This document shows positions 6,921 to 27,332 of a stretch of DNA of 43,913 nucleotides, in pieces. The notes under the pieces were generated by a model. The model was not told the DNA's origin and did not search any database. It saw only the letters and a program-made list of their open reading frames with translations. The stretch covers positions 1-43,913 of the forward strand of contig NZ_JARHTQ010000049.1 of the NCBI RefSeq assembly GCF_029223525.1. The letters are read 5' to 3'. Source of the stretch: Streptantibioticus ferralitis (GTDB lineage: Bacteria; Actinomycetota; Actinomycetes; Streptomycetales; Streptomycetaceae). The first letter of the stretch is position 1, and each line of letters begins with the position of its first letter. The position numbers were made by a program, and so were the translations under genes.

Positions 6921-7583
6921 TCAGTCGAGAAAGGTAACCGTCTCGTTGAGTGGGGCTCGGGCCACGCGGACGCAGGGTCTGACCGGGTCCGCATGGCCCA
7001 CCGACATGCCGCAGAAGAGCATGAGGGACTCGGAGGGTGACACGATCTCCGCGACGGTCCCGTGGTACACCGACCATGCCATCTGCGGGCAGCTGTGCAG
7101 TCCTTCGGCCCGCAGCAGCAGCATGATGGTCTGCATATACATGCCGACATCGGCCCATTGGGCCGGTCCCATGTCCCGGTCGATGTAGCAGAAGAGGGCG
7201 GCGGGCGCGCCGAAGCAGCTCCAGTTCGCGGTGACCGCTTTGTGTCGTGCGGTTCTGTCCTCGCGTGGAATGCCGAGCGCGGTGTACCGCTGCTCGGCGG
7301 CGGCCCACCGTCGTTCCTGATAGGGGGATTTGAGGTTGGGCGGGTACATGTCGTACTCGGGTTTGTCTCCGGGGTCTCCCGCGGACGCACGTGCGACGGC
7401 GCGTTTCTTGAGTTCGTCCAGCCGCTCACCGGTCAGCACATAGGTGTGCCACGGCTGAAGGTTTGCACCGGACGGTGCCCTGGACGCGGCCGAGAGCACC
7501 CGCTCAAGTACCTCCTTCGGCACGTGATCACGGGTGAACCCCCGCACCGCTCGGCGAGTGTCCACCGCCTCATAGACGTCCAA
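6921..7583 (-). CDS. Nitroreductase-family flavoenzyme
   Basis: The 220-residue FMN oxidoreductase belongs to the nitroreductase superfamily. It begins (TTG)DVYEAVDTRRAVRGF, the usual start with the FMN-phosphate-binding Arg residues. SGANLQPWH near residue 40 and the GMSVGHAD region near the C-terminus are also typical. These enzymes reduce nitro groups, quinones or imines, or oxidise dihydro-heteroaromatics, with NAD(P)H/FMN. The TTG at 7583 fits the conserved start and lies nine bases after AGGAGG. It is a separate minus-strand unit, since a strong hairpin precedes it. A role in late oxidation or reduction of the heterocycle is possible. Confidence 0.8.
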   Translation of the reverse strand: MDVYEAVDTRRAVRGFTRDHVPKEVLERVLSAASRAPSGANLQPWHTYVLTGERLDELKKRAVARASAGDPGDKPEYDMYPPNLKSPYQERRWAAAEQRYTALGIPREDRTARHKAVTANWSCFGAPAALFCYIDRDMGPAQWADVGMYMQTIMLLLRAEGLHSCPQMAWSVYHGTVAEIVSPSESLMLFCGMSVGHADPVRPCVRVARAPLNETVTFLD

Positions 7584-7710
7584 CAGCCAGATCCTCCTGC
7601 ATCGCCTCACCGTTTCGCGGTCGCCCCTTGTACTGGGCGCCCATACTTATGAACGGTTCGGAACGGGGAGAGGTGACTGATGGGCACCGCGATCGAGTCA
7701 CGAGATGCGG

Positions 7711-7740
7711 CCCGGCCGGTGGCGGGTGGCCCCGGCCGGG
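7711..7740 (-). terminator. Terminator hairpin after the flavin reductase
   Basis: Perfect 9-bp arms 7711-7719 and 7732-7740 (CCCGGCCGG) enclose a 12-nt loop, 26 bp beyond the stop of the minus-strand flavin reductase. It separates the thioesterase-to-reductase operon from the nitroreductase gene. Confidence 0.55.
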
Positions 7741-7765
7741 CGTCACGTGTGCGGGTGGGGTGGCC

Positions 7766-8377
7766 TCATCCGTCGACGATGTAGCGGTCCAGGGTGCGGA
7801 CGTAGTCCGCGGCACCCATGCGGCCGACCGACCCCAGCCGATCGAGGTCGAGGTGGAAGTCGGTTTCGTGGATCAGCTCTTCGTCCGCGGCGAGGTGGGC
7901 GACTTCCCCGATGACGACGAAGTGGTCTCCGACCGGCACCACCGCGGACGTCCGGCATTCGAAGGCGATGGGGGAACCGTCGATGCGTGGCGAGCGGACC
8001 CTCCGCCCGGGCAGCGGCCGCAGGCCGGCCAGCTCGTACTCCGACTCGCCGTGCGGCAGGGGCTTCGCTGAGGCGGTGGCGGCCTCGGCGTGTTTCTCGA
8101 TCAGGACGTTGACGGTGAACTCCCCCGTGCCTCCTTCGGCCGGCACCCGGGCGTTGCGGCAGGAGTCCTTCTCCGTGCCGTCGGCCCGCCGACCCGCGCA
8201 GAAGAGCAAGGCCATCGGGGAGTACCCCACCGCCGTGTAGTAGGAGAAGGGCGCCAGGTTGACCGATCCGCTCGGGGAGACCGTGCTCACCATGGCGATT
8301 GGCCGGGGGACCACACTCCACAACAACAGCCGCTCGCGCTGTCGTGTGGTCATGTCCGCTACGTCGATGTCCAGCAT
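7766..8377 (-). CDS. NAD(P)H:flavin reductase-like protein
   Basis: The 203-residue protein has a flavin-reductase-like FMN-binding domain with an N-terminal segment (VVPRPIAMVSTVSPSGSVNL, then APFSYYTAVGYSP) typical of the flavin-reductase/DIM6 family. Such proteins supply reduced flavin to two-component monooxygenases or halogenases, or act as flavoproteins themselves. Its start follows the MbtH stop by three bases, so the genes are translationally linked. With a tryptophan halogenase and a luciferase-like monooxygenase in the same cluster, it may be the flavin donor for one of them. Confidence 0.8.
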   Translation of the reverse strand: MLDIDVADMTTRQRERLLLWSVVPRPIAMVSTVSPSGSVNLAPFSYYTAVGYSPMALLFCAGRRADGTEKDSCRNARVPAEGGTGEFTVNVLIEKHAEAATASAKPLPHGESEYELAGLRPLPGRRVRSPRIDGSPIAFECRTSAVVPVGDHFVVIGEVAHLAADEELIHETDFHLDLDRLGSVGRMGAADYVRTLDRYIVDG

Positions 8378-8380
8378 GGA

Positions 8381-8608
8381 TCAGCCGCTCTCGGTGCCGC
8401 AGGGCTGACTGGCGCCGGGATCGCGCAGGCTCTGGGGGCGCAGGTCCGTCCAGACCCGGTCGACGTACGCAAGGCACTCGTCCAGCGTGCTGGTGAAGCC
8501 GACTGGCGACCAGCCCGCCGGGGTCGCGCTGTCCGCAGGCCAGACCGAGTACTGCCGCTCGTGGTTGATCACGACGTCATGGAGCCGGTTGGTGTCGTCT
8601 GCTGCCAT
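8381..8608 (-). CDS. MbtH-like protein
   Basis: The 75-residue protein shows the MbtH pattern: an N-terminal NHERQYSVWP block and the invariant Trp residues in GWSPVGF and VDRVWTDLRPQSL. MbtH proteins bind NRPS adenylation domains and stabilise or activate them. The partner here is almost certainly the A-PCP didomain at 21508-23268, the only adenylation domain in the window. It lies in an operon with thioesterase and tryptophan dioxygenase upstream and flavin reductase downstream. Confidence 0.93.
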   Translation of the reverse strand: MAADDTNRLHDVVINHERQYSVWPADSATPAGWSPVGFTSTLDECLAYVDRVWTDLRPQSLRDPGASQPCGTESG

Positions 8609-8659
8609 GAAGGCCGCCTTCTGTCTCGTGGGGGGAATGAGGTCCTGGTCCGGTGGGTC

Positions 8660-9379
8660 TCACGCGGGGCTGGGGGCGAGGTCCTCCGCGTGCACAGCGC
8701 CGCGCAATCGCCGCAGCTCCGGGAAGGGGAGCGTGATCCGGCGCATCAGGAACTCCTCCCCGGACGTTCCTCCCGTGCCCTGCTGCCCTCCGACCATCTT
8801 CGACATCACCCCCAGGTGGGCCACCTTCCAGCGCCAGTAGCCGTTGCCCATGTCGAGCAGCGCCTCGGCTACCCGGTGCAGGCCGCCGCCAGTGATCCCG
8901 AGGCGGCAGACATCGGCGACGGTGCAGCCCTGATGGGCGGCGTTCTCGACGAAGGCCCTATACAGCTCGCCCTCCCCCTTGTCGTCCCCCAGCAGTCGGC
9001 TGAGCACCCGGAACTGCTGCGACTGTGCCCCGCTGGCCGTGCCGAGGTAGGGCCGGAACTGGACAAAATGGCGCAGCGGGAGACGTTCCAGGACGAGCAC
9101 CTGCTCGTGCAGGACCCGTAGCAACTCGGCCGCGCGCTGGAGCAGTTCCACGCTGATCTCAGCCCCGTCGGCCGGATGGCAAGGGGAGGACAGCAGGTCC
9201 CTCGCCAGGCTCAGATCCGCGAGGGCCTGCTTGAGCCATAGCTCGCAGGACTGGTGGGCAACGATGAAGAAGTGTTCGGCCAGGACCACGGTCCGGTCGG
9301 CCGTCTCGGGGATTTGCGTCTTCTGGAGCGAGAGTAGTGTCTCTGTCTGGAGATAGGAGGAATAGTTCAGCTCAGCCAT
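8660..9379 (-). CDS. Tryptophan 2,3-dioxygenase
   Basis: The 239-residue haem enzyme opens the indole ring of L-Trp, or of a substituted or beta-hydroxylated Trp, to the N-formylkynurenine. It starts MAELNYSSYLQTE and carries FFIVAHQSCELWLKQAL, whose His corresponds to the substrate-base His of bacterial TDOs. It also has the YWRWKVAH region with the haem-ligand area and the GTGGTSG loop that contacts the substrate ammonium. The length is slightly short of typical (~260-280). The ATG at 9379 has GGAG seven bases upstream and nearly abuts the thioesterase stop (9382). In quinoxaline- and quinaldic-acid clusters a dedicated TDO acts on beta-hydroxytryptophan; here the substrate may also be halogenated. 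Confidence 0.93.
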   Translation of the reverse strand: MAELNYSSYLQTETLLSLQKTQIPETADRTVVLAEHFFIVAHQSCELWLKQALADLSLARDLLSSPCHPADGAEISVELLQRAAELLRVLHEQVLVLERLPLRHFVQFRPYLGTASGAQSQQFRVLSRLLGDDKGEGELYRAFVENAAHQGCTVADVCRLGITGGGLHRVAEALLDMGNGYWRWKVAHLGVMSKMVGGQQGTGGTSGEEFLMRRITLPFPELRRLRGAVHAEDLAPSPA

Positions 9380-9381
9380 GG

Positions 9382-10158
9382 TCAGCTCCGTGTCAGTGAG
9401 TCCGTGTCGAGTGCGGTGTCGAGGGCGGCGACGACGTCGGCGAGCAGGGGTTCTGCGTCCTGGAACGGGTGGAAGTGGTGGCCCTCTCGTTCGAGCAGGC
9501 TGAAAGGCCCGGTGGTGACGGAGGCCCAGCCGGCCAGCACGTCGCCGTCCACGAGCGGATCGTGAACGCCGTGGTAGCAGCGGACTGGGCAGGACAGGGG
9601 GATGGCCCCGGGCTCCGGTCGGTAGTGTTCGTGCGCCGTGATGTCCGCACGCAGCACCGGGAGCAGCGCCTCCGCCAGTTCCGAGTCGTCGGCCACGGCG
9701 GCGTCGACATCGCCCAGGGAGCAGATCAGGGACCACAGTTCGCCGTCGGAGAGCAGTTCGGCACACACACGGCCAGCCGTGCCGGGGGGAGGGCAGCTGG
9801 ACGCCAGCAGACCCGAAGGCGGGCGGCCAAGGGCGCTAAGGGTCAGAGCGGTCTCGTAGGCGACCAGGGCGCCGAGGCTGTGCCCGAACAGCACGGTGGG
9901 CAGCGGCCGTAGGCGCAGGAGTTCGGAGGCGAGTTCCGAACTCAGCGCGCGCACGTCAGCCGATAGCGGCTCGCTGAATCGGTCGCCGTGTCCCGGATAC
10001 TGTGCCGCCAACAACTCGATGGTCGGCGGGAGCCCGGTGGCCCACGTGCCGTAGCCGACCATGGTGCCGCCGGAGTGCGGCAGGCAGACGAGCCGTGCCG
10101 TGGGTGCAGGCGCCTGGGCCAGCGTCCGCAGGCAGTGATCCCGGCGAGTACGAAGCAT
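9382..10158 (-). CDS. Type II thioesterase (alpha/beta hydrolase)
   Basis: The 258-residue protein is of the GrsT/RifR type. It has an N-terminal LVCLPHSGGTMVGY block, nucleophile Ser94 in GHSLGA, Asp in VHDPLVDGDV and His in GHHFHPF. In clusters with a lone A-PCP didomain and a CYP163-type P450, such enzymes hydrolyse the beta-hydroxyaminoacyl thioester to free the amino acid. That role fits here; general editing of mis-primed carrier protein is the alternative. It is the first gene of the minus-strand operon, divergent from the frameshifted P450. AGGAG precedes the ATG. Confidence 0.9.
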   Translation of the reverse strand: MLRTRRDHCLRTLAQAPAPTARLVCLPHSGGTMVGYGTWATGLPPTIELLAAQYPGHGDRFSEPLSADVRALSSELASELLRLRPLPTVLFGHSLGALVAYETALTLSALGRPPSGLLASSCPPPGTAGRVCAELLSDGELWSLICSLGDVDAAVADDSELAEALLPVLRADITAHEHYRPEPGAIPLSCPVRCYHGVHDPLVDGDVLAGWASVTTGPFSLLEREGHHFHPFQDAEPLLADVVAALDTALDTDSLTRS

Positions 10159-11624: not shown

Positions 11625-11831
11625 ATGCGTGTGACGGTCGACCAGCAGCGCTGCATCGGCTCGGGAATGTGCGTCCTCGCCGTGGGCGAGGTGTTCGACC
11701 AGCGGGAGGAGGACGGGGCCGTCCACCTGCTGCGGGAGGACGTGCCGAGCGAACTTCAGGACCGGGTACGCCATGCCGCTCGCGTCTGTCCCTCACGGGC
11801 GATCACCGTCCCGCAGGAGACCGATGCCTAG
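11625..11831 (+). CDS. 3Fe-4S ferredoxin, P450 redox partner
   Basis: The 68-residue protein has Cys10, Cys16 and Cys55 followed by Pro (CIGSGMC and VCPSRAI). This is the three-cysteine arrangement of Streptomyces P450-associated 3Fe-4S ferredoxins. It carries electrons from a ferredoxin reductase to a P450. It lies 53 bp after the CYP163-like gene and must have evolved with it. It could also serve the second P450 at 23329. The ATG at 11625 has GAGG seven bases upstream; an in-frame ATG at 11601 would add eight residues. Confidence 0.88.
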   Translation: MRVTVDQQRCIGSGMCVLAVGEVFDQREEDGAVHLLREDVPSELQDRVRHAARVCPSRAITVPQETDA

Positions 11832-11896: not shown

Positions 11897-13201
11897 ATGC
11901 CGTCCGTCACCGCCCCGCCGTTGGGCGGGCATGCGTTGCTGGTTCTGCTGGTCCAGGCGTCCTTGCTCCTCGGTGTCGCGCTGCTGCTCGGCCGTATCGC
12001 CACGCGGTTCAAACTGCCTGCGGTGTCAGGCGAGTTAACGGCGGGCGTCCTGCTCGGACCCTCAGTGCTTGGTCGGCTCATCCCCGGATTCCACCACTGG
12101 CTCCAGACGACACAGGCGTCCCAGGTTCATCTACTGGATGCGGTCGGCCAGCTCGGGGTGATCCTCCTCGTGGGGACGACTGCGCTGGAGATCGACCCTG
12201 CTCTGGTGCGCCGTACCGGACGGACGTCGCTCACGGTGGGGGCCTTCGGCCTGCTGATTCCCCTCGGGCTCGGCTGTGCCGCGGGTGTCGTGGCGCCCGC
12301 GGCCCTACTGCCGGTCGGCCGCGAACGCGGTCTGTTCGCCCTCTTCATCGGTGTGGCCATGTGCGTGAGCGCCCTGCCAGTGATCGCCAAAATGCTGTCG
12401 GACATGCGGCTGCTGCACCGGGACATCGCTCAACTGACCATCGCCGTCGGTGTGGTGGACGATGTCACCGGCTGGATGCTGCTGTCCGTAGCTTCCGCCA
12501 CGGTGGCGAGCGGGTTCACGCTCGGATCGGTGGCCGAGCCGCTGTGCCGGCTGGTGCTGATCACGGTCTGCGCCACGTTCCTCGGTCGGCCGGCGATCCG
12601 ATGGCTGATGGCCAGGGCGCGGTCCCCGCAGATGGTCACGGGTACGGCGACCGTGGTGATCACCGGGTGCGCCGCGGCCACACAGGCCATGGACATGGAG
12701 GCGTCGTTCGGTGCCCTCGTCGGAGGCCTACTGGTGGGCGCTGCCGGAGCGGAGACGAAGAGGGGCCTGGCGCCCCTGCGTTCCGTCACGCTCTCGGTTC
12801 TCGCACCGCTCTATTTCGCCGAGGCGGGCCTGCGCATGGACCTGTTCGCGCTGGGCACACCGCTGATCGCCCTGGCAGCGCTGTGCGCGCTCGTTGTGGC
12901 GACCGTGGGTAAGTTCACCGGGGCACTGCTCGGCGCTCGCGTCGCGAGGCTCGATCGCCGTGCCGCCCTGGTGCTCGGCGCCGGGATGAACGCGCGCGGG
13001 GTGATCCAGATCATCGTGGCCGGGATCGGTTTGCGGCTGGGCGTGCTGAACACCGCGTCGTACACCATCGTGATGCTGGTCGCGGTGGGTACCTCGCTGA
13101 TGGCGCCGCCAGTGCTCCGCCGCGCCGTGCAGCGCATCGAGGTCAACGACGGGGAGCGGGCCCGTCTCCAGCGGGGCAAGGATCTGGCGGGCGTCTCCTG
13201 A
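11897..13201 (+). CDS. Cation/proton antiporter (CPA2, Kef/NapA-like)
   Basis: The 434-residue integral membrane protein has about 12-13 hydrophobic segments. It shows the CPA2 pattern PAVSGELTAGVLLGPSVLG near residues 40-60 and the VGVVDDVTGW pair of aspartates near residue 190. There is no C-terminal RCK domain. Members exchange Na+ or K+ for protons. Antiporters of this kind recur in actinomycete peptide-antibiotic clusters, where self-protection or ion balance has been suggested. It follows the ferredoxin by 65 bp with GGAGGAA upstream of ATG 11897. Its stop codon sits in the loop of the terminator hairpin. Confidence 0.85.
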   Translation: MPSVTAPPLGGHALLVLLVQASLLLGVALLLGRIATRFKLPAVSGELTAGVLLGPSVLGRLIPGFHHWLQTTQASQVHLLDAVGQLGVILLVGTTALEIDPALVRRTGRTSLTVGAFGLLIPLGLGCAAGVVAPAALLPVGRERGLFALFIGVAMCVSALPVIAKMLSDMRLLHRDIAQLTIAVGVVDDVTGWMLLSVASATVASGFTLGSVAEPLCRLVLITVCATFLGRPAIRWLMARARSPQMVTGTATVVITGCAAATQAMDMEASFGALVGGLLVGAAGAETKRGLAPLRSVTLSVLAPLYFAEAGLRMDLFALGTPLIALAALCALVVATVGKFTGALLGARVARLDRRAALVLGAGMNARGVIQIIVAGIGLRLGVLNTASYTIVMLVAVGTSLMAPPVLRRAVQRIEVNDGERARLQRGKDLAGVS

Positions 13202-13212: not shown

Positions 13213-13214
13213 GA

Positions 13215-14108
13215 CTACGCCTTGAAGGCGCCGAAGTCGATTGCTGCGAGGCGCTCCGGGTCCAGCAGGATCTGGATCTGCGCGATCCGGTCCTGCCGGA
13301 CGGCGAAGCCCATGACGGACACCGGTACGCCCCCCCGGTCGACCAGAACGCCAGGGGCGCCGTTGACGAGGACGGCGGTCACCGTCACGCCGGGCTGACG
13401 GAAGAGCGCGGCCCGCTCCGCCACGAGGCGGGCCCCACGGATCACGGCCGTGGCGGAGGCGAGCGCGAGTCCGCCGTCAGCGTGGAGTTCGACATCCGGG
13501 TCCAGTACGGCCACCAGCCCGTCGAGGTCGCCGCTGCGAGCCGCGGCGAAGAAGGCGTCGACCAGCATGCGCCGGGTCGCGAAGTCGCCACCGGAGTCCG
13601 CCTCGCGGGCGCCTTGCACCCGGCGGCGTGCCCGGCTTGCGAGCTGACGGGTCGCCACCGTCGTACGCCCGATGACGGCCGCGATCTCGTGGAAGGTCAG
13701 ATGGAACATGTCGTGCAGCACGAAGGCCACCCGCTCGGCGGGGGCGAGCGTGTCCAGCACGATCAGCAGCGCGAGGCTGACCGATTCGCTCAACAGCGCC
13801 TCGTCCTCGGGGCCGTGGGACGGCTCGTGCCTGATGGCGGGGTCCGGCAGGTGCACGCCGACTGGGTCCTCCGGCCGCGCGGCGCGTGACCTGAGCACGT
13901 TCAGGCAGATCCGGCTGATCACGGTGGTCAGCCAGGCGGGGAGGTTCTCCACCTCGTCCGCGTTGCTGCGGCTGAGTCTGATCCAGCTGTCCTGTACGGC
14001 GTCCTCGGCCTCGGCGTGCGAGCCCAGCATCCGGTAGGCGACGGTCCTCAGATGTGGCCGGAAGTTTTCGAACTGCTCCGCCAGCCGATCGTGGTCGTGC
14101 ACGGTCAC
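13215..14108 (-). CDS. ECF41-type RNA polymerase sigma factor (SigJ-like)
   Basis: The 297-residue protein has sigma region 2 at about residues 10-80 (RTVAYRMLGSHAEAEDAVQD) and region 4 at about 120-170 (LDTLAPAERVAFVLHDMF, then FHEIAAVIGRTTVATRQLAS). It continues into a ~110-residue SnoaL/NTF2-like C-terminal domain (MLVDAFFAAARSGDLDGLVA). That fused domain defines ECF41, in which it modulates sigma activity without a classic anti-sigma factor. It diverges from the MFS exporter gene and may activate the export or biosynthetic promoters, but no clear ECF41 promoter was found upstream. Confidence 0.88.
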   Translation of the reverse strand: MTVHDHDRLAEQFENFRPHLRTVAYRMLGSHAEAEDAVQDSWIRLSRSNADEVENLPAWLTTVISRICLNVLRSRAARPEDPVGVHLPDPAIRHEPSHGPEDEALLSESVSLALLIVLDTLAPAERVAFVLHDMFHLTFHEIAAVIGRTTVATRQLASRARRRVQGAREADSGGDFATRRMLVDAFFAAARSGDLDGLVAVLDPDVELHADGGLALASATAVIRGARLVAERAALFRQPGVTVTAVLVNGAPGVLVDRGGVPVSVMGFAVRQDRIAQIQILLDPERLAAIDFGAFKA

Positions 14109-14234: not shown

Positions 14235-15827
14235 ATGAGCCTGTCTCTCACCGAATCGCGGCGTCGGCGGCTGACTCTGTTCGCGATGTGCATGGCGACC
14301 TTCATGACCTCGCTCGATCTGACCATCGTGAACGTGGCACTGCCGTCGATGCAGAGTGAACTGCACATGAGCGCTGCCGAGTTGGAGTGGGTGATCAGCG
14401 CATATTCGCTGAGCCTGGCCGCGATCATCCCGGCCAGCGGAGCGCTCGGCGACCGGTACGGCCGCAAGCGGGTCTTCCTGACAGGGATGATCGTCTTCCT
14501 GATCGGCGTGATCGCCTGCGCCGTGGCCTGGGACGCGGCCTCGCTCATCGCCTTCCGCGCAGTGCAGGGCGTCGGGGGCGCGGCGATGCTCGCCCTGGGG
14601 CTGTCGATCATCACGGAGACCTACCCGCAGGAGCAGCGGGCCGGCGCGATCGGTGCCTGGGCGGCCATCGGCGGCACCGGATTCGGCGCCGGACCTGTCG
14701 GCGGGGGCATCCTGCTCACCTTCTTCAGCTGGCCGTCGGTGTTCTGGATCAACTTGCCCTTCGCCGCCCTGGGCATCGCCTGCACGGCCGTGGCGGTCCG
14801 GGAGTCGCGCAATCCCCAGGCTCGCAAGCTCGACGTGCCTGGGATGGCGCTCAGCTTGCTGGGACTGGTCTGCCTCACGCTCGGGTTCGTCGAGTCGTCC
14901 GACCACTCGTGGGGTGCGGCCCTCGTGGCGTTGCCCCTGGCGGCCGGGGCCGTGCTGCTGCTCGCCTTCTTCTGGTGGGAGCGCCGTGCCCCGCACGCCA
15001 TGCTGCCGCCGGCTCTGCTGCGGGCGCGGAGCTTCGCTAGCGCCTCGGGCATCTACATGCTCTGTTACGGCGGGATGAGCGGCGCGCTCTTCTGGGTCAC
15101 GCTGTACTTCCAGAACGTCGCGGGCTGGTCGGTCCTGCGCACTGGGCTGTCGTGGCTGTTCATGAACATCCCGTTCCTGACGATGGCGCAGTTCGGCGGG
15201 CGGCTCGACTCCCGCTTCCGGGCATCGACGGTGGCTACGTGGGGGACACTGGTGGCCGCAGTCGGCGTGTTCCTGCTCAGCAGGGCGGGAACCACCCCCT
15301 TCGCCGTCAGTGCCCTCGGATACGCGCTGTACGGCGGTGGGTTCGGCACGTTCGTGCCCGCCGTGACCCATGTGGCGATGCGCGACGTGCCCTCAGGAGT
15401 CTCCGGCGCGGCCTCCGGTGTCCTGAACGCGTCACGGCAGATCGGCTCCTCGGTGTGCCTCGCGGTGCTGGGCACCGTGGGTGTCAACGCGGCCGCCTCC
15501 AACTGGCAGGGCAAGGTGTCCGTGCTGGACGGGACGCGCCACGCCACGGCACTCGGGCAGGCGCACAACGTGGGTGGCGGACGCGTACACGCCGTGGTGG
15601 AAACGCTCGGCGCACCATTCCGGCAGCTGGCTGTCGACTCCTTCCTGCACGGCTACCAGCTGGCCGTCGGGATCGCTGCGGTCTGCACGGCCGTGGCCGC
15701 TGGCCTCGCCTGGACGGGGTTCCGGCGCCGGGCCGAGCCGCCGCAGGCCGCCGCGCAGCCGTCCCTGGCCGTCCCGGAACGTGAGGCCATTGTGACCGGG
15801 GACGGCCCCCGCCGACGGAGTCAGTGA
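14235..15827 (+). CDS. MFS drug exporter, DHA2 (EmrB/QacA) family
   Basis: The 530-residue protein has about 14 transmembrane segments. It carries the DHA2 motif LDLTIVNVALPSMQ in TM1, GDRYGRKRVF (motif A) and the antiporter motif C region GGTGFGAGPVGGG. It would export small hydrophobic compounds in exchange for protons. A strong GGGGGAG site precedes ATG 14235. Its position between the two ECF sigma genes inside the cluster makes it the likely product exporter and resistance gene. A strong terminator hairpin follows at 15890. Confidence 0.9.
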   Translation: MSLSLTESRRRRLTLFAMCMATFMTSLDLTIVNVALPSMQSELHMSAAELEWVISAYSLSLAAIIPASGALGDRYGRKRVFLTGMIVFLIGVIACAVAWDAASLIAFRAVQGVGGAAMLALGLSIITETYPQEQRAGAIGAWAAIGGTGFGAGPVGGGILLTFFSWPSVFWINLPFAALGIACTAVAVRESRNPQARKLDVPGMALSLLGLVCLTLGFVESSDHSWGAALVALPLAAGAVLLLAFFWWERRAPHAMLPPALLRARSFASASGIYMLCYGGMSGALFWVTLYFQNVAGWSVLRTGLSWLFMNIPFLTMAQFGGRLDSRFRASTVATWGTLVAAVGVFLLSRAGTTPFAVSALGYALYGGGFGTFVPAVTHVAMRDVPSGVSGAASGVLNASRQIGSSVCLAVLGTVGVNAAASNWQGKVSVLDGTRHATALGQAHNVGGGRVHAVVETLGAPFRQLAVDSFLHGYQLAVGIAAVCTAVAAGLAWTGFRRRAEPPQAAAQPSLAVPEREAIVTGDGPRRRSQ

Positions 15828-15930: not shown

Positions 15931-16121
15931 TGCGCCCGGCCAGACAACTGCATCAATGAGAATGCGCTATCGGGGCCGGGCGGCCATGCTGTTGGCAGAC
16001 CGGTGAGTGGCTCCGCCACAGGTCGCATCGCCATGACAGCCCCGCACCCCCGGGGGCGTGTCCATCGCCGAGCCCAGAAGACAAAACCACCAGATTGCCT
16101 GTTTGCTACGGGGAGACACTC

Positions 16122-16799
16122 TTGAGCGAAGGCGTCAAGTTAATACGCTGGCCCATCGAGGCCGACACGCGGAATGACTGCAGGAAAGCTGGAATTCCCC
16201 GCCTGCTGGTCGTGGAGGCTGGCAACGACGCTCCCATCTGCGTCGACCCCACGGAGGACTGGATCAGGGCACCCGCCCCCCGCGGCGATGTCGAGGCACG
16301 CATACAGGCGTTGGCCCGGCGTGCCTATGGGCGGAAGGTCCCGACCGTCGACTCCACCGGCGTCCTTAATTTCGGCACCGACTCGGTGGCCATCTCCAGT
16401 ATCCAGGTGGGAATCATGGAGCAGTTTGTCGCCCACTACGGCGAAGTGGTCTACCGGTCGGAGTTGGAGCAGGAGGTGGTCAAGGCCACCGGGAAGATCT
16501 CCAGAAACGCCCTCGACCTGCAGATCATGCGACTGCGCCGCCGTATCGCCGCAGTGGGCCTGAGCATCCGGACTGTTTGGGGCCGGATCTGCACCGTCTC
16601 ACCCACCACGGCGGCGGGGACGCGCGAGGCGAGGCCGAAGTCCGTCCGGCTGACCGTCACCGAGGCACTGACGCCGAGCACCGGCACCCCGCGCACGGGG
16701 TCGGTCCCGAAACCGCCGGGTTCGGCGACCAGGGTGACCGCCTTGGTCGTACCCCGCAGGGTCAACTCGCCGTCGATCAAGAACTGGTGCTCGTGCTGA
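16122..16799 (+). pseudogene. Winged-helix regulator, 3' end fused to antisense YceI sequence
   Basis: Up to about 16585 the frame encodes a Streptomyces wHTH regulator. An N-terminal receiver-like segment (PRLLVVEAGNDAPICVDPTE) is followed by an OmpR/PhoB-type DNA-binding domain ending RNALDLQIMRLRRRI and SIRTVWGR. Family members continue GYLL and stop within a few residues. Here the frame runs about 70 more codons through DNA that is the antisense of the YceI gene. TTG at 16122, six bases after GGAG, is the likely start. The DNA-binding domain is nearly complete, so some function may remain. Confidence 0.65.
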
Positions 16800-17104: not shown

Positions 17105-17137
17105 GCCACGTCTCCTTATCGGTCGTGCGTCACACGG

Positions 17138-17152: not shown

Positions 17153-17190
17153 TCATGAGTACGACGGACTGTGAACCGGAAAGGTGACCA

Positions 17191-18075: not shown

Positions 18076-18220
18076 GTCAGGCCTGACGCCGCCTTAGCCC
18101 CGGCAGGAGCGGAAGAGCGTCTTTCGTAAATCTTTTTCCGCCGAACGACCCGGCCGCGGCCCATGCAAGAGTCTGCGTGCAACGTCCAAGGATCTGGCCG
18201 CACCCACCAGGACGGAAATC

Positions 18221-19813: not shown

Positions 19814-19838
19814 CGGCATGCCAAGAGGTACCTCCACG

Positions 19839-20444
19839 ATGCCCATACCCATGGCGGGGGCCGACGGCCGCACCGCGGCCGAGCCGGTCTCGGCAACCGC
19901 GTTCAGAACTTTGATGGCGTCCTTCCCGGCCGGAGTTGCGGTGGTGACCGCCGCCGACGAGGGCGGACGGCAGTACGGCATGACCTGCACCGCGGTCTCC
20001 AGCGTGTCGGTCAGCCCACCGACGCTGCTGGTGTGTATGCAGCGCTCCAGCCGCACTCTCGCCGTCCTCACCAGGACGGGCAGCTTCGCCGTGAACCTGC
20101 TGGACGACCAGGCCCGCACGGTCGCCGAACTGTTCGCCACCCGCGGGCGGGACCGCTTCGAGCACGTGTCGTGGACCGCACGGCCGGACTGCGGCGGACC
20201 GCATCTCGAACAGGACACGCACTCCATCGCGGACTGCCGGGTCACCGGTTCGGTCGCCGTCGCCGATCACGTCGTCGTGTTCGGCGAGGTCTTCCGAGTC
20301 ACCACGGAGGACGACGCACGGCCGCGCCCCCTGGTCTACGGAATGCGCGAGTACTGGTCCCTCGGCCACACCGGCGCCGCGCCACAGCACTGTGCCCCCT
20401 CACCGGGCGAACCATCGGACTCGGATACGGAGACGTCGAGATGA
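19839..20444 (+). CDS. Flavin reductase (two-component monooxygenase/halogenase partner)
   Basis: The 201-residue protein of the HpaC/flavin-reductase-like family has the N-terminal FRTLMASFPAGVAVVTA block and GMTCTAVSSVSVSPPTLLVC. The C-terminal half has SFAVNLLDD and HSIADCRV. It reduces FMN or FAD with NAD(P)H and releases it to a partner. It follows the halogenase by 25 bp and overlaps the luciferase-like gene by four bases (ATGA), so it is the natural partner of either. ATG 19839 is chosen; in-frame GTG 19806 or ATG 19818 are alternatives adding 7-11 residues. Confidence 0.88.
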   Translation: MPIPMAGADGRTAAEPVSATAFRTLMASFPAGVAVVTAADEGGRQYGMTCTAVSSVSVSPPTLLVCMQRSSRTLAVLTRTGSFAVNLLDDQARTVAELFATRGRDRFEHVSWTARPDCGGPHLEQDTHSIADCRVTGSVAVADHVVVFGEVFRVTTEDDARPRPLVYGMREYWSLGHTGAAPQHCAPSPGEPSDSDTETSR

Positions 20445-21511
20445 CGAGCTATGGGATATCGCTGCTGCCGGACACCCTGCCGCAGCAGCGCAGCGCCAAG
20501 GACTACTACGCCAACCTGCTGACGGTATCCGAGCTGACTGAGGACCTTGGGCTCGACTACGTCAAGATGACCGAGCACTACCTGCACCCCTACGGCGGCT
20601 ACTGCCCCGACCCGCTCGCCTTTCTGTCCGCCGTCGCGGCGCGCACCAGCAGGGTCCGGCTGATGACCGGCGGCATCCAGGCATCCTTCCACCACCCGAT
20701 CCAGCTCGCGGCGCGCACCGCGCAACTCGACGCGCTCAGCGGCGGCAGGCTGGACGTCGGCTTCGCGCGCGCTTTCCTGCCGTACGAGTTCGACTCCTTC
20801 GGCATCGACATGGACAGCAGCACGGACCGTTTCCGGGCCACCGTCGATGCCGTGGTCAGGCTGTGGACCGAACCCGATGCGAGCGAGGACACGCCGTTCT
20901 TCCGCTACCGGGGCGCGAACTCCCTGCCGTTGCCCACCCAGGACCCGCATCCTCCCGTGTGGGCCGCCGCGCTCCTCACCCGCTCCAGTTTCGAGTGGAT
21001 CGGGGACTCCGGTTACAACCTCCTGATTGCCTCCTCGCCCAGCCGTGAGCAGGTGGGCCAGGTCCGCGAGATGATCGAACTGTACCGGAGCAGGTTCATC
21101 GGGGCACCGAAGAACGCCGGAAAGCAGCCCCGGGTCGCCATCAGCGTCGCGCTGTACCTGGCCGACTCCGACGAGGAAGCGCTGGAGCAGGGCACCGCGG
21201 CGCTGCGTCGGCACTGGGACACCTTCGGCTCGGCCGCGGACGCCTGGCGCAGCCGCACTTCCACCTCGTACCAGGGCTACCGCGAGGCCGTGGTGGACAA
21301 GCACCAGGCCGGCCCGAGCGAGGCCGCGGGCCTGGCGGTGATCGGCTCGCCCCGTAGCGCGGTCGAGCAACTGCGGCAGATCGAGCGGGAACTGGGAACG
21401 GACATCGTCCTGTTCCAGCTCGACTACGGCCAGCAGCCCCTGGAGACCATGGAGCGCAGCCTGAAGCTGTTCGCCTCCGAGGTCCGCCCCCAGCTGGGTG
21501 GGACACGTTGA
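20441..21511 (+). CDS. Luciferase-like FMN-dependent monooxygenase
   Basis: The 356-residue TIM-barrel flavoprotein belongs to the bacterial luciferase family: MTSYGISLLPDTLP, LGLDYVKMTEHY, ARTSRVRLMTGGIQASFHHP and LSGGRLDVGFARAF. Relatives found in NRPS/PKS clusters hydroxylate or oxidise carrier-bound or free intermediates with reduced flavin from a separate reductase, here probably the overlapping upstream gene. Its stop overlaps the TTG start of the A-PCP gene, indicating translational coupling and a shared task. No such gene is part of the core quinoxaline pathway as I recall it, so this may be where the product departs from known chromophores. Confidence 0.85.
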   Translation: MTSYGISLLPDTLPQQRSAKDYYANLLTVSELTEDLGLDYVKMTEHYLHPYGGYCPDPLAFLSAVAARTSRVRLMTGGIQASFHHPIQLAARTAQLDALSGGRLDVGFARAFLPYEFDSFGIDMDSSTDRFRATVDAVVRLWTEPDASEDTPFFRYRGANSLPLPTQDPHPPVWAAALLTRSSFEWIGDSGYNLLIASSPSREQVGQVREMIELYRSRFIGAPKNAGKQPRVAISVALYLADSDEEALEQGTAALRRHWDTFGSAADAWRSRTSTSYQGYREAVVDKHQAGPSEAAGLAVIGSPRSAVEQLRQIERELGTDIVLFQLDYGQQPLETMERSLKLFASEVRPQLGGTR

Positions 21512-23268
21512 CCGGGAGGCCGGTCGGCCGCACGGTGCCCGAGCTGTTCGAGGCGCAGGCGGCGCGCACCCCGGACGCGCCGGCCGTGCTATACAAGCAC
21601 ACCTCGCTCACCTATGGCGCCCTCAACGAGCGGGCCAACAAGCTGGCCCGGTTGCTGATCGACCGGGGCGTGGGCCCGGACCACCTTGTAGCGCTGGCCG
21701 TGCCACGTTCCCCGGAGCTGGTGGTCGCGTTGCTGGCGATCCTCAAGGCGGGCGGCGCCTATCTTCCCCTCGATCCCCGCTACCCCGCGGCCCGCAAGGC
21801 GTTCATGGTCCAGGACGCCGCCCCGCGGCTGCTCGTGCGCGCGGGAGCGGGGCGGGCCGAGGGAGTGGAGCTGGACAACGTCGTCCTCGACTCCCAGTCG
21901 TGCGCTGAGGCCTGCTCCCGGTACAGCGGCGCGAACGTGCGTCAGACCGAGCGCCGGGAGCCACTGTCGGACCTCCACTTGATGTACGTGATCTACACTT
22001 CCGGCTCCACCGGGACACCGAAGGGCGTCGCGGTCACCCACGAGGGCGTCGCGGACCTGGTCGCGACCCAGGCGGACCGGTTCCGGCCGGCTCCTGGCGA
22101 CCGGGTGCTGGCCTGGGCCTCGATAAGCTTCGACGCGGGATTCTGGGACATCGCGCTCGCCCTGCTGCACGGGGGCACCCTCGTGATGGCCGACGACGAG
22201 GATCTGCTGCCGGGCGACGCCCTGCACGAAACCCTGGTCAAGTACGAGATCGACCACGCGGTGCTGCCGCCCGCCGCGCTCAGCGTCACGGACAGCGAGT
22301 CGGTGCTGCTTAGCGGCACGATCATGTCGACCGGTGACGCCTGCACCCCGGCCCTGGTGCGCACCTGGGCACCGAGCCGACGCATGTTCAACGGCTACGG
22401 CCCCACCGAGGTGACCGTCGGCTGCACGATCGCTGGCCCGATCACGGAGGCCGATGGCGTGGGTATCGGTGTCCCGTGGACCGGGGCCCGGGTGCACGTG
22501 CTCGACGAGCGTCTGCGGCCCGTGGCTGTCGGCGAGGAGGGCGAACTGTACCTGGCCGGCTCCGGACTGGCCCGCGGCTACGTGGGCCGTCCGGGGCTGA
22601 CCGCGGCGAGGTTCCTGCCCGACCCCTTCGGGCCGCCGGGCAGCCGCATGTACCGCTCGGGCGACCGCGGCCGACGTGACGCCGACGGCCGGTTCCACTT
22701 CGCCGGCCGGGCTGACGGACAGGTGAAACTGCGGGGATTCCGCGTCGAACTCGGCGAGATCGAGGCCTTCCTCACTGGGCAACCGGACGTGGATCTGGCC
22801 GCGGTGGTCGTCGACGGAGAACTCGCCGACGCGCGGCTGGTCGCGTACGTCACCGCCCGCCCCGGCGCCGTTGTCGACTCCTCGGACCTGCGGGAGCGGC
22901 TGGCCGCCGCCCTGCCGGAGTTCATGGTGCCGACGCGCATCGAGGTACTCGACGCCTTCCCCACGATGCCCAACGGGAAGATCGACCGCGGTGCCCTGGC
23001 CAGCCGGGACGGCACCGCCGTGCTGGAGCGGCCCTGCGCACCCCGGGAGCCGGACTCGCCGGAGGACCGGCTGTACGACACCGTCGCCCGGCTGCTCGAC
23101 CTTCCGAGGGTCGATCCCGAGGCCAACTTCTTCGACCTAGGCGGCAATTCCCTGCTCGCAGGCAGGCTCATCGGCTCGCTGCGTGAGGAGCTGGGCGTAC
23201 GCGTGCCCGTCCGGGCGGTTCTCGGGGCGCGCGATCTGCGGGAGATCGCCCAGTCCTTGAACGGGTGA
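21508..23268 (+). CDS. Stand-alone NRPS adenylation-PCP didomain
   Basis: The 586-residue protein has one A domain (core motifs YVIYTSGSTGTPKG, NGYGPTE, YRSGDRGRRDADGRFHFAGR, PNGKIDRGAL) and one carrier domain with the phosphopantetheine Ser at about 548 (FFDLGGNSLL). There is no condensation domain. By-eye alignment to GrsA gives a tentative specificity code D-A-W-V-M-T-G-V-G-K. Such didomains (NovH, Ecm13 and TioK types) load an amino acid for beta-hydroxylation by a CYP163 P450, with help from MbtH; here Trp or chloro-Trp is the likely substrate. The TTG start at 21508 overlaps the previous stop (TTGA), giving tight coupling. Confidence 0.93.
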   Translation: MTGRPVGRTVPELFEAQAARTPDAPAVLYKHTSLTYGALNERANKLARLLIDRGVGPDHLVALAVPRSPELVVALLAILKAGGAYLPLDPRYPAARKAFMVQDAAPRLLVRAGAGRAEGVELDNVVLDSQSCAEACSRYSGANVRQTERREPLSDLHLMYVIYTSGSTGTPKGVAVTHEGVADLVATQADRFRPAPGDRVLAWASISFDAGFWDIALALLHGGTLVMADDEDLLPGDALHETLVKYEIDHAVLPPAALSVTDSESVLLSGTIMSTGDACTPALVRTWAPSRRMFNGYGPTEVTVGCTIAGPITEADGVGIGVPWTGARVHVLDERLRPVAVGEEGELYLAGSGLARGYVGRPGLTAARFLPDPFGPPGSRMYRSGDRGRRDADGRFHFAGRADGQVKLRGFRVELGEIEAFLTGQPDVDLAAVVVDGELADARLVAYVTARPGAVVDSSDLRERLAAALPEFMVPTRIEVLDAFPTMPNGKIDRGALASRDGTAVLERPCAPREPDSPEDRLYDTVARLLDLPRVDPEANFFDLGGNSLLAGRLIGSLREELGVRVPVRAVLGARDLREIAQSLNG

Positions 23269-24528: not shown

Positions 24529-24567
24529 CCGGACCGCGTGTCCGCACTGTCTCACGAGGAGCCAATC

Positions 24568-25911
24568 ATGCACGACTCGCGTACGTCCGCTCCGGCGGCG
24601 AGCAGCGGCATCGTGGTGGTCGGGGCCGGGCTGGCCGGTCCGGTCGCCGCGATCTACCTGGCCCGGCGGTTCGGCCGGGTTACCGTACTGGAACGGCATA
24701 CAGACCCCCGGCACATCCCGGCTGGGCAGGGCCGGTCCCTCATGGTGATTCTGTCGGACCGAGGGTGGCGCGTGCTGCGCGAACTCGGCCTGGAGAAGGC
24801 CGTGCGCCGGATCTGCGTTCCTCTCACGGCCCGGTGCGGTCACCTGCCGGACGGCAACACCGTGGTGACCCCCTACAGCCGGGACGGAATACCGATCTGG
24901 GCGGTCGAACGGCACCGGCTGCACCGCCTTCTGCTGGACGCGGCCGAGGCCGAGCCGGGGGTACGTGTCCATTTCGAGCGACCGGTCCTCGCAGTGGACC
25001 TGGAGGCACCGGCACTCCTGGTGCGAGCGGGCACCGCCGAGCGGTGGATTACCTGCCAGCATGTCCTCGGCTGCGACGGCGTCCACTCCGTGGTCCGTGC
25101 CGCCCTGGTCGACCAGGGCGCTCAGGAACAGGTCAGCATCCTGGAGCTGGCCTATCAGGAGATCGTCCTGGACCTGCCCTCCTGCGATCGCGGGCTCATG
25201 CACTACTGGCCTGCCGGTGACGCGCTCTTCGGGGCCTTCCCGCTGGTCTCCTCCCCGCTGTTCGCAGGCTCGGTGTTCCTCCGCAGGGAGGGACCTCGTC
25301 CGTCCTACGCTGCTGCGGCCATCGGCCGCGCTCTGGCACAGCAGTTCGCCGAGGTTTTTCCCGCACTGGCTGCCGGCATCCCGGACCTTGAGGAGCAGCT
25401 GGCGACCAAGCCGGTATCCGCCGTGCGGCTCACCCGGTGCGACAGATGGGCCCTGGGCGGCACGGCCGTGCTCGTCGGCGACTCTTGTCATGCCATGGCC
25501 CCCTTCATGGGACAGGGCATGAACTGCGCCTTCGAGGACGTCCGCACGCTCGTGAGCTGCCTGGACCGCGAGCAGGACTGGGAGAGGGCGTTCGCGGCGT
25601 ACGAGCGGATCCGCAAAAGCGACGGCAACGCGATCGCGGACATCTCCTACCAGCACTACCGCACGATGTCCCGGTTGCCGGACCCCCGGCAGGAGGCCGA
25701 GGAGGCCATCGCCCGACGGCTGGTCTCCCTGATGCCGGACCATTTCGTTCCCCTCTACGAACGCTGTGCGTTCAGCGAGGAGAGCTACAGCTCGGCGCGC
25801 GCCGAGGAACGCCGGCTGCGCGAAGTCGCCCGGCGGATCCTCAGCCGCCACGGCTCCGACGCCGCCGACCTGTCCGATCCGCAACTACGCGCGTGCGTCT
25901 CGTCCGCGTGA
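24568..25911 (+). CDS. Kynurenine 3-monooxygenase-like FAD hydroxylase
   Basis: The 447-residue class A flavoprotein has VVVGAGLAGPVAAIYLARR (FAD), GQGRSLMVILSDRGWRVL (the KMO-type substrate loop) and LVGDSCHAMAPFMGQGMNCAFED, which closely follows the KMO signature. KMO hydroxylates kynurenine at C3 with NADPH and O2. KMO-like FAD enzymes in quinoxaline-acid clusters are proposed to oxidise (beta-hydroxy)kynurenine on the way to the ring system. Its place after the A-PCP and P450 genes supports a kynurenine-derived substrate. ATG 24568 follows AGGAG. The far C-terminus lacks an obvious membrane helix, unlike the eukaryotic enzyme. Confidence 0.85.
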   Translation: MHDSRTSAPAASSGIVVVGAGLAGPVAAIYLARRFGRVTVLERHTDPRHIPAGQGRSLMVILSDRGWRVLRELGLEKAVRRICVPLTARCGHLPDGNTVVTPYSRDGIPIWAVERHRLHRLLLDAAEAEPGVRVHFERPVLAVDLEAPALLVRAGTAERWITCQHVLGCDGVHSVVRAALVDQGAQEQVSILELAYQEIVLDLPSCDRGLMHYWPAGDALFGAFPLVSSPLFAGSVFLRREGPRPSYAAAAIGRALAQQFAEVFPALAAGIPDLEEQLATKPVSAVRLTRCDRWALGGTAVLVGDSCHAMAPFMGQGMNCAFEDVRTLVSCLDREQDWERAFAAYERIRKSDGNAIADISYQHYRTMSRLPDPRQEAEEAIARRLVSLMPDHFVPLYERCAFSEESYSSARAEERRLREVARRILSRHGSDAADLSDPQLRACVSSA

Positions 25912-25966
25912 GTCCGCGGCTCACACCAGGTGTGTTCACACAAGAGGGAATTGCCGGGAGGGCACA

Positions 25967-26293
25967 GTGATTTTGGTCGTCTTCAGGTCGCGTTTCTCCA
26001 AGCAGGTCGACGACGCGTACGGAACAACGGAAGAGCATTTGGCCAAGAAGGTGCGGGAGATGGCCGGCGACGATCTCGTCCATCTCAAGAACTACGTGGC
26101 GGAGGACGGCGAGCGCCTGGCTCTGGTGTGGTGGCGGAACCCCGAGACACTGGAGAAGTGGCGCAACGATCCCGAGCACCAGGACGCTCAGCGGCTCGGC
26201 CGTGACAAGTGGTACGAGTTCTTCGAACTGAGCGTCGCCGAGGTCGTCCGCACCAGTTCCAGCGTGGGCCCCGAGGCGTACCCGGCTCCGTGA
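25967..26293 (+). CDS. ABM-like ferredoxin-fold protein
   Basis: The 108-residue protein starts at GTG 25967 behind GGGAGG (ILVVFRSRFSKQVDDAYG, then LVHLKNYVAEDGERLALVWW and WRNDPEHQDAQRLGR). The spacing of the valine-rich first strand and the W-x-P-E-H-x-x-A-Q element match the antibiotic-biosynthesis-monooxygenase (ABM) dimeric alpha-beta barrel family. Such small proteins catalyse cofactor-free oxidations or aromatisations. It is the last gene of the halogenase operon and could help the final aromatisation of the heterocycle; that role is inference. Confidence 0.7.
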   Translation: MILVVFRSRFSKQVDDAYGTTEEHLAKKVREMAGDDLVHLKNYVAEDGERLALVWWRNPETLEKWRNDPEHQDAQRLGRDKWYEFFELSVAEVVRTSSSVGPEAYPAP

Positions 26294-26310
26294 GCCTCCG
26301 TGCCGCTCAC
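26290..26310. terminator. Short inverted repeat between convergent ABM and dehydrogenase genes
   Basis: GTGAGC (26290-26295) and GCTCAC (26305-26310) form a 6-bp stem with a 9-nt loop spanning both stop codons. It is the only symmetry available to end the two convergent transcripts. The evidence is weak. Confidence 0.25.
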
Positions 26311-27332
26311 AGCGCGGCGAGCACCGCGCGCGTCACCTCCCGAGTGCTCAGTGAGCCTCCCAGGTCCGGGGTGACCCGCCCGGCCGCGATCGACCCGGCG
26401 ACCGCCGCGTCGATCGCGGCCGCCTCGGTCTTGTATCCCAGATGGCGGATCATCAGCCCGGCGGTGAGCAGACACGCGAAGGGATTCGCGATGCCCTGCC
26501 CCGCGATGTCCGGGGCCGAGCCGTGCACCGGCTCGAACAGCCCGAAGCCGCTCTCGGGGTTGAGACTCGCCGACGGCGCCAGACCGATCCCGCCAGCCAG
26601 CGCGGCCGCAAGGTCACTCAGGATGTCGCCGTACGAGTTGCTCGCCACGATGACATCAAAGCGGCCCGGTTCGGTGACGAGCTTCATTGCGGCGGCGTCG
26701 ATGTAGAGATGCCTGGTGGCCGTCTCGGGATGACGCTCCGCGCTCCGTCGCCAGCACTCCTGCCACAGGCGGCCGCCGGCCCGCACCGCGTTCGCCTTGT
26801 CCACAAGACACACCTCGCGCCGGGCCGTGAAGAACGCGTAGTCCAGGATCCTGGAGACGCCGTGCCAGGTGTTGATGTCGGCGTCGATGGCCACTTCCTG
26901 CGGTGAGGAGGTACGGAGGTTCCCGCCGATGCCGCTGTAGAGCCCCTCGGTGTTCTCGCGGACGATCACGCAGTCGAGCATGCGGCTGGCCGGGTCCCGC
27001 AGCGGGCTGAGCCGGTCGTGCCACAGCCGGACGGGTCGGCAGTTGGCGTACAGGTCGAAGCTGTGCCGCAGGGACAGCAGAACACCGCGTACGTAGTCGG
27101 TCTCCTCCAGGTCAGGCCGTCCGATGGCCCCCAGCAGGACAGCGGAACTCGCGGACACGCGCGCCAGGTCCGCCTCGTTCAGCGCCAGGCCGTCGCGGCG
27201 GTACCGGTCCGCGCACACATGGTCGAGAACGTCGGCCGACAGACCGATGCCGAGCACGTCCAGCACCTGAAGCGCGCATTCGACGACCTCGGGACCGATG
27301 CCGTCGCCGGGGATGACGGTGATGGAATCCAA
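26307..27332 (-). CDS. Isocitrate/isopropylmalate-dehydrogenase-like enzyme
   Basis: The 341-residue beta-decarboxylating dehydrogenase starts (TTG)DSITVIPGDGIGPEVV. It has VIVRENTEGLYSGIG (substrate-binding Arg and Glu region), the catalytic Tyr/Lys/Asp region (VDKANAVRAGG, SNSYGDILSDLAAALAGGIG) and GLFEPVHGSAPDIAG for NAD(P). The family oxidises a beta-hydroxy-acid and decarboxylates it. In the echinomycin pathway a homologue is proposed to act on the N-(2-aminophenyl)-beta-hydroxyaspartate intermediate before cyclisation; the same job fits here. It converges on the ABM gene with a 13-bp gap. TTG 27332 follows AAAGGTGA; an ATG at 27368 is possible but lacks a good site. Confidence 0.88.
   Translation of the reverse strand: MDSITVIPGDGIGPEVVECALQVLDVLGIGLSADVLDHVCADRYRRDGLALNEADLARVSASSAVLLGAIGRPDLEETDYVRGVLLSLRHSFDLYANCRPVRLWHDRLSPLRDPASRMLDCVIVRENTEGLYSGIGGNLRTSSPQEVAIDADINTWHGVSRILDYAFFTARREVCLVDKANAVRAGGRLWQECWRRSAERHPETATRHLYIDAAAMKLVTEPGRFDVIVASNSYGDILSDLAAALAGGIGLAPSASLNPESGFGLFEPVHGSAPDIAGQGIANPFACLLTAGLMIRHLGYKTEAAAIDAAVAGSIAAGRVTPDLGGSLSTREVTRAVLAAL

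Follow-up and report, generated by a model that had tools for sequence, protein, structure and literature searches.

The window analysed here is the entire contig C54 (43,913 bases) of the Streptantibioticus ferralitis genome, which comprises 8.8 Mb in 110 contigs. Positions 6921-27332 hold a block of biosynthetic genes that, by its gene content, probably encodes a halogenated starter-unit pathway of the quinoxaline-2-carboxylic acid (QXC) type. A preliminary description of this DNA had listed a tryptophan halogenase, an adenylation-peptidyl carrier protein (A-PCP) didomain, an MbtH protein, a type II thioesterase, a P450 with a ferredoxin, a tryptophan 2,3-dioxygenase (TDO), a hydroxylase resembling kynurenine monooxygenase (KMO) and an isocitrate/isopropylmalate-dehydrogenase-like enzyme. 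All of these enzyme types have been recovered in the block by gene calls and Pfam/NCBIfam domain searches. The product proposed there, a halogenated QXC or a related halo-kynurenine heterocycle, is supported by two QXC marker genes, by the gene order of a cluster in genome G239 and by presence and absence of the halogenase gene relative to Streptomyces sp. CB02056. With no assembly line on the contig and a frameshift in the assembled sequence of the P450 gene, the block is probably a starter-unit cassette, orphaned and bordered by integrases, that may have been inactivated recently; its activity in this strain is doubtful.

The formation of QXC has been assigned to seven qui genes, which encode an A-PCP, a P450, a thioesterase, a TDO, an esterase, an FAD oxidoreductase and an isopropylmalate dehydrogenase, accompanied by an MbtH partner (PMC3578932; PMC4052310). 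The window holds homologues of this entire set and of MbtH, the esterase excepted. Feeding work has identified Streptomyces echinatus as an echinomycin maker at the level of the species, not of strain CECT 3313 (PMC4052310), whose cluster is compared here. The A-PCP didomain (21508-23268, plus strand; PF00501, PF00550), predicted to load L-Trp or halo-Trp, is 58% identical to its S. echinatus counterpart, and the MbtH-like partner of the A domain (8381-8608, minus strand; PF03621, 67 bits) is 47% identical. The type II thioesterase (9382-10158, minus strand; PF00975, 117 bits) shows 51% identity, and the P450 of the carrier-bound amino-acid beta-hydroxylase type (10377-~11571, plus strand), which is in two parts, 65% and 73%. 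The TDO, of the secondary-metabolism type (8660-9391, minus strand), is 75% identical to that of CB02056, 66% to that of G239 and 60% to that of S. echinatus. It is a diverged member of its family, scoring 116 bits with the NCBIfam model trp_2_3_diox against a cut-off of 391; His46 and His192, presumably the haem-site histidines, are invariant in 11 aligned sequences. The KMO-like FAD monooxygenase (24538-25911, plus strand; PF01494), counterpart of Qui12/Ecm4/TrsO, shows identities of 54% to S. echinatus, 64% to G239 and 82% to CB02056, and the S. echinatus gene it matches sits beside the dehydrogenase gene of that cluster. The isocitrate/isopropylmalate-dehydrogenase-like enzyme (26307-27332, minus strand; PF00180, 310 bits), counterpart of Qui13/Ecm3/TrsP, is 65% identical to that of S. 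echinatus, 71% to that of G239 and 83% to that of CB02056. A protein of 108 aa (25967-26293, plus strand), 55% identical to its S. echinatus relative, completes the set. The window, G239 and S. echinatus share all nine specificity residues of the A domain, DAWVMTGVG, and CB02056 has two substitutions. The kinship with the echinomycin cluster suggested beforehand is thus borne out by identities of 47-73% across the QXC set and by an identical A-domain code. Compared with the ecm/qui/trs QXC sub-pathway, as represented by S. echinatus, the window shares the A-PCP, MbtH, P450, thioesterase, TDO, FAD enzyme, dehydrogenase and 108-aa gene. It differs in gene order, in its additional halogenase, luciferase-like monooxygenase (LLM), flavin reductases, nitroreductase and CYP105-like P450, and in having no nonribosomal peptide synthetase (NRPS), no QXC ligase and no esterase that was found.

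In the proposed pathway, the halogenase, fed by a flavin reductase, would add Cl or Br at C5 of L-Trp, and the A-PCP with MbtH would load Trp or halo-Trp. The P450 with its ferredoxin would hydroxylate the beta carbon of the carrier-bound substrate, the type II thioesterase would free the hydroxylated product from the carrier and the TDO would open the indole ring. The FAD enzyme, the ABM-like 108-aa protein and the dehydrogenase would then convert halo-beta-hydroxykynurenine to halo-QXC, which the LLM and the second P450 may modify further. Among the qui proteins, the A-PCP Qui18 has been reported to load L-Trp in vitro and Qui17 to convert beta-hydroxy-Trp. Substrate, step order, halogen position, product and activity are predictions here, drawn from the gene content, homology, co-occurrence and gene order observed.

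QXC marker genes and related clusters

The dehydrogenase and the 108-aa gene have been searched for in 20 other genomes (4 + 16), and since these were mostly picked via TDO the test is valid within that group. A QXC-type dehydrogenase (63-83% identity) is present in 7 of the 20, namely CB02056, G239, S. echinatus, Streptomyces sp. ADI96-02, S. narbonensis, Streptomyces sp. I6 and Lentzea flava. The remaining 13, including Kribbella sandramycini, have only LeuB-like copies at 42-47%, and LeuB-like copies elsewhere span 42-48%. The 108-aa protein is encoded near the dehydrogenase in the same seven genomes, at E values of 2.4e-28 or lower, and the 13 genomes without the QXC-type dehydrogenase give no match to it at E 0.001. 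In wider draws the gene was found in 4 of 394 genomes of the family and 1 of 394 of the class, the window being counted in both. The same co-occurrence would be expected if the two genes recombine homologously or transfer horizontally as a unit. Four of the seven marker genomes also encode weaker ABM-like proteins (29-30%) outside the cluster. Dehydrogenase relatives at 58-60% occur on plasmids of S. violaceusniger (pSTRVI01) and Streptomyces sp. NBC_00868, where the surrounding NRPS regions also hold leuC, leuD and a pyridoxal-phosphate-dependent aminotransferase and no annotated TDO or halogenase; this is another secondary-metabolite use of the dehydrogenase family.

The 108-aa protein is a concrete candidate for those QXC steps that are given as oxidative rearrangement, oxidation and spontaneous reactions (PMC4052310; PMC3578932). 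No such protein appears in the qui table (PMC3578932) or in the pathway section of the review (PMC4052310). A literature search has found no paper pairing Ecm5 with echinomycin, and the term ABM was lacking among the matches listed. The place of the 108-aa gene in the S. echinatus order is presumably where ecm5 would be. The ABM label is given because the PF03992 score is barely above the cut-off (23.7 versus 23.1 bits) and a profile search matches PDB 2go8; the relatives in CB02056 and S. echinatus score below the PF03992 cut-off. A single-sequence structural model of the protein (pLDDT 61) has ABM proteins as its best Foldseek matches, none at E <= 0.001.

The nearest relatives of the block are the clusters of CB02056 and G239, and both carry the QXC-type dehydrogenase and the 108-aa gene. 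The G239 cluster has the halogenase at 77% identity, the QXC set at 50-74% and an uninterrupted P450. Its order halogenase-reductase-LLM-A-PCP is the same as in the window; one flank of this run holds the FAD enzyme, the 108-aa gene and the dehydrogenase, and the opposite flank MbtH, TDO, thioesterase, P450 and the antiporter. Genes for an NRPS, a thioesterase, an AMP-ligase and a class-III aminotransferase come next. Compared with the window, G239 is without the nitroreductase, the second flavin reductase, the ferredoxin and the CYP105-like P450, and has a single-module NRPS and tailoring genes alongside.

CB02056, which belongs to a different genus from the window strain according to the genome labels, has an orthologous block with an intact P450 and its complete shared genes at 68-86% identity; its MbtH (50%) is located elsewhere. 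No published description of this cluster was found in the literature search. It differs from the window in having no halogenase in the block, no antiporter and a truncated second sigma factor, and in two large NRPS genes about 12 kb off with a transposase between. Its DNA aligns to window positions 17045-17837, 18109-18214 and 19809-20000, and thus it is without the halogenase gene (18221-19813) almost exactly, together with the 3' end of sigma factor 2. The core genes have a ratio of nonsynonymous to synonymous differences (pN/pS) of 0.22-0.57 relative to CB02056, and the halogenase one of 0.30 relative to G239; the core genes are under purifying selection throughout. In the A-PCP tree the window groups with CB02056 (100/100), then with G239 (99/98) and S. 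natalensis (94/96). On this branching, loss of the halogenase in CB02056 is the simpler account, and separate halogenase gains are a possible alternative. In the TDO tree the window again joins CB02056 (100/99), followed by G239 and Streptomyces sp. CB03234 (88/83).

The halogenase and the predicted position of the halogen

The flavin-dependent tryptophan halogenase (18221-19813, plus strand; PF04820, 454 bits) contains the motifs VGGGTAGW (GxGxxG) and GWIWTIP (GWxWxIP), Lys75 within YKLA, and EPLEST; Lys75 and the Glu of EPLEST are presumably the catalytic residues. Among solved structures it scores 796 bits with 8fov (Trp 5-halogenase), 771 with 5hy5 (Trp 6-halogenase), 756 with 5lv9, 742 with 6nsd and 640 with 2wet (Trp 5-halogenase). 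Its loop reads HGFEP, compared with HGFES in 8fov, HGFET in 2wet and HGLPP in 5hy5, 5lv9 and 6nsd. HGFEP also occurs in the halogenases of G239, CB03234, G106, S. daqingensis and Nonomuraea sediminis, and CB02056 has another halogenase, on a different contig, with HGLPP. Because of the HGFE loop and the closest match to 8fov, C5 of Trp is reasonably likely to be the site of halogenation, the scores for 8fov and 5hy5 being close. The HGFE/HGLPP loop steers the halogenation position, and 5lv9 and 6nsd are Trp 6-halogenases. The halogenase shares its overall sequence, catalytic motifs and HGFE loop with Trp 5-halogenases of the PyrH/8fov type and differs from them in its setting, with a QXC-type pathway adjoining.

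By the published scheme, C5 of Trp is predicted to correspond to position 6 or 7 of QXC; the loss of one or the other side-chain carboxyl would decide between them. Feeding experiments have given bis-6-chloro- and bis-7-chloro-triostin, of which the 7-chloro compound shifted to AT-rich DNA and the 6-chloro compound bound DNA as before (PMC4052310). If the halogenase does belong to QXC-type clusters, nature may itself set this switch in DNA preference, and a Trp-5-halogenase would change the DNA-reading part of the molecule. The halogen would also break the symmetry of the benzo ring, so that product structure alone would show which nitrogen neighbours the carboxylate. The window and G239, with a halogenase, and CB02056, without one, form a ready-made comparison. 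No halogenase in a QXC pathway was described in the titles and abstracts among the matches listed by the literature search, which covered subscription journals thinly and is weak evidence of novelty. The broader proposition, that a natural halogenated-quinoxaline lineage exists (the window and G239, with CB02056 having lost the halogenase) and also that the 108-aa protein is an overlooked ring-forming enzyme of QXC, is put forward tentatively and, in both parts together, is rather unlikely.

Related halogenases have been observed at other loci. The halogenase tree has six rows, CB03234 being excluded for a stop codon within the aligned stretch. In CB03234, which has no QXC markers, the halogenase (74%) adjoins a TDO (65%), and the locus also has a hydrolase, several P450s, an AMP-ligase and a squalene-hopene-cyclase-like gene. 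In S. daqingensis and G106 a halogenase (68-69%) lies beside TDO, A-PCP, MbtH, thioesterase and NRPS genes, again without QXC markers, and the S. daqingensis locus adds a P450, a class I/II aminotransferase, a short-chain dehydrogenase/reductase and an aromatic-acid ligase. From their gene content these two loci are candidates for a halogenated pathway of the 3-hydroxyquinaldic acid (HQA) type. S. echinatus (L047:1-4597) and S. narbonensis have, about 12-16 kb from their echinomycin-type genes, a second gene set with a halogenase (39-41%), a TDO-like gene (27-29%) and an A-domain protein, which resembles the chloro-kynurenine trio of taromycin.

Integrity of the block and alternative readings

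The P450 with ferredoxin of the preliminary description is confirmed as to family and neighbour, the ferredoxin gene (11640-11831, plus strand; PF13459/PF13370) following directly in the map, but the P450 is not one open frame. It is of the right family for beta-hydroxylating carrier-bound Trp and is frameshifted as sequenced: the N-terminal ~280 aa and the C-terminal haem-binding part lie in different frames, and the gene is two bases short relative to its relatives near 11,215 (FRAMESHIFTED). The orthologous reading frame is unbroken in CB02056, G239 and S. echinatus. In the PDB the best hit of the intact CB02056 orthologue is 4l0e (P450sky), with 431 bits against 278 for the next, as would suit an enzyme that hydroxylates amino acids bound to a carrier. 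The second, CYP105-like P450 was considered as a substitute beta-hydroxylase and ruled out, since CB02056 has it in addition to an intact first P450.

No condensation domain is encoded on C54, the ten of the genome all lying elsewhere, and no relative of the S. echinatus QXC ligase was found on C54 at E 1e-40. The combination of an aromatic-acid ligase with two bimodular NRPSs that marks quinomycin-type bisintercalators is thus not seen on this contig. A displaced assembly line was sought and rejected. The ten condensation domains are spread over five stretches, whose identity to the NRPSs of CB02056, G239 and S. echinatus is 25-44%; one piece of 290 aa reaches 53% and one of 37 aa 51%. These values indicate no orthologue among the condensation-domain places of the genome. 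A relative of the S. echinatus ligase (53%) is encoded at C11:88841, 5-20 kb from NRPS domains, and is only a possible trans-acting loader. At the left border of the block are an excisionase-like helix-turn-helix gene and a tyrosine integrase (5062-6592, plus strand; PF12728, PF00589), and at the right border a related integrase (28345-29754, plus strand; PF00589 just below cut-off). The integrases have the same orientation, lie 23,213 bases apart and match each other at the DNA level over 300 bases (70% identity) and 273 bases (76%), and the block possibly derives from an integrative element. A search for an integration site found no tRNA, and no border repeats of at least 24 bases were found beyond the integrase genes (shorter cores not sought).

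These features bring forward the strongest alternative, which overlaps with the favoured reading: the block may be the decaying remnant of a halogenated QXC peptide cluster, its assembly line and beta-hydroxylase gone, so that nothing is made in this strain. This is a serious contender, at somewhat less than even probability. The frameshifted P450, the want of an NRPS or ligase on the contig and of an orthologous NRPS among the ten condensation-domain places, and the integrases at both borders are what such decay would leave. All other core reading frames are open, however, and the P450 remains under constraint in its two parts (pN/pS 0.22 and 0.35 relative to CB02056), which argues for a recent frameshift or a fault of the assembly; moreover, a QXC-like acid might serve in trans or be released as such.

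Several further observations, together with the broken P450 and the missing synthetase and ligase, weigh against a halogenated QXC-type pathway. No counterpart of the esterase Qui3/Ecm14/TrsF has been recognised in the window. Deformylation may be spontaneous (PMC4052310). In CB02056 a hydrolase gene adjoins the nitroreductase gene and is a candidate formamidase, and it has no counterpart at the left border of the window; the second gene set of S. echinatus has a hydrolase 55% like it. In CB02056 itself the link between NRPS genes and block is inferred, as they are about 12 kb apart with the transposase between. In both the TDO and the A-PCP trees the window falls outside the echinomycin clade. 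Its next kin beyond CB02056 and G239, CB03234 for TDO and S. natalensis for A-PCP, are without QXC markers, and the echinomycin-type clade of the TDO tree includes S. coffeae, whose genome also has none. The LLM, the second P450 and the nitroreductase have no slot in the published QXC route, and with such additional redox genes the product could be modified further.

That last point underlies a second alternative, in which the LLM, second P450 and nitroreductase divert the pathway to another halogenated kynurenine-derived heterocycle or to an N-oxidised or hydroxylated quinoxaline. The LLM (20432-21511, plus strand; PF00296, 168 bits) is 86% identical to that of CB02056, 74% to that of G239 and 60% to that of S. 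natalensis, and it is kept together with its reductase in all three, S. natalensis being marker-free. The second P450 (23275-24528, plus strand; PF00067) is retained at 84% in CB02056, and G239 is without a close counterpart. The QXC-specific dehydrogenase, the 108-aa gene and the FAD enzyme are nevertheless retained and constrained, and a diversion of this kind is considered unlikely. S. natalensis ATCC 27448 has a TDO, an A-PCP, both P450 types, the LLM and the flavin reductase, with no halogenase or QXC markers, which implies a role of the LLM module apart from QXC. The flavin reductase adjoining the LLM gene (19842-20444, plus strand; PF01613, 126 bits) may serve the LLM first, because it is kept beside it in CB02056 and S. 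natalensis, where no halogenase gene lies at that locus. Plasmids searched with the LLM yielded matches of only 41% among those listed.

A further reading takes the halogenase for a passenger with no relation to the QXC genes, so that the product would be plain QXC, as the halogenase-free block of CB02056 would allow. In G239, however, a constrained halogenase of 77% identity occupies the same position in the same order, and halogenases of the same clade occur in clusters that contain a TDO gene in S. daqingensis, G106 and CB03234. The halogenase therefore belongs with the pathway, given the G239 gene order and the clean presence and absence relative to CB02056, and the passenger is very improbable. 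Least probable is a block that makes halogenated HQA, since no TioG-type aminotransferase was found among the scanned reading frames and both QXC markers, absent from the HQA-type genome tested (K. sandramycini), are present. The HQA sub-pathway (thiocoraline, sandramycin, SW-163) shares with the window the A-PCP, MbtH, P450, thioesterase and TDO steps, those up to beta-hydroxykynurenine being common to the HQA and QXC routes (PMC4052310), and sandramycin is described as containing HQA (PMC9962454). After TDO the HQA route has an aminotransferase and an oxidoreductase, whereas the window has the QXC-type FAD enzyme, 108-aa protein and dehydrogenase. The absence of a kynurenine aminotransferase, on which the preliminary description had relied, holds for the window open reading frames (ORFs) scanned with Pfam (10+9+10 ORFs, a few shorter flank ORFs left out).

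Accessory and flanking genes

The block contains several genes absent from the preliminary description: the LLM, the flavin reductases, a nitroreductase, a Na/H antiporter, a major facilitator superfamily (MFS) pump, two SigJ-type sigma factors, a winged-helix regulator, the 108-aa gene and the second P450. The nitroreductase-family protein (6921-7610, minus strand; PF00881, 94 bits) is 75% identical to that of CB02056, and the clusters of G239 and S. echinatus have none. The other flavin reductase-like protein (7766-8377, minus strand; PF01613, 86 bits) has a relative in CB02056 (85%) and none in G239. The Na/H-exchanger-type transporter (11897-13201, plus strand; PF00999, 143 bits) has one in G239 (64%) and none in CB02056, and the MFS transporter (14235-15827, plus strand; PF07690, 185 bits) is a candidate exporter. 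The two SigJ-type extracytoplasmic function sigma factors lie at 13215-14108 (minus strand; PF04542, PF08281) and 17191-18075 (plus strand); the second is 57% identical to its G239 relative, and CB02056 keeps its residues 1-203 only.

The winged-helix regulator (16095-16799, plus strand; PF00486) probably ends earlier than its ORF, judging from the alignments: the relatives in G239, CB02056 and S. echinatus align only to about residue 164. This ORF and a YceI-like ORF on the minus strand share about 350 bases (window 16095-17104), and CB02056 retains only fragments of YceI. Comparison of the right flank (30600-43913) with two congeners gives patchy matches only. This flank contains a serine-hydrolase gene of the Pfam Beta-lactamase family (36509-37747), and the ORF at 37993-39240 is similar to it by eye.

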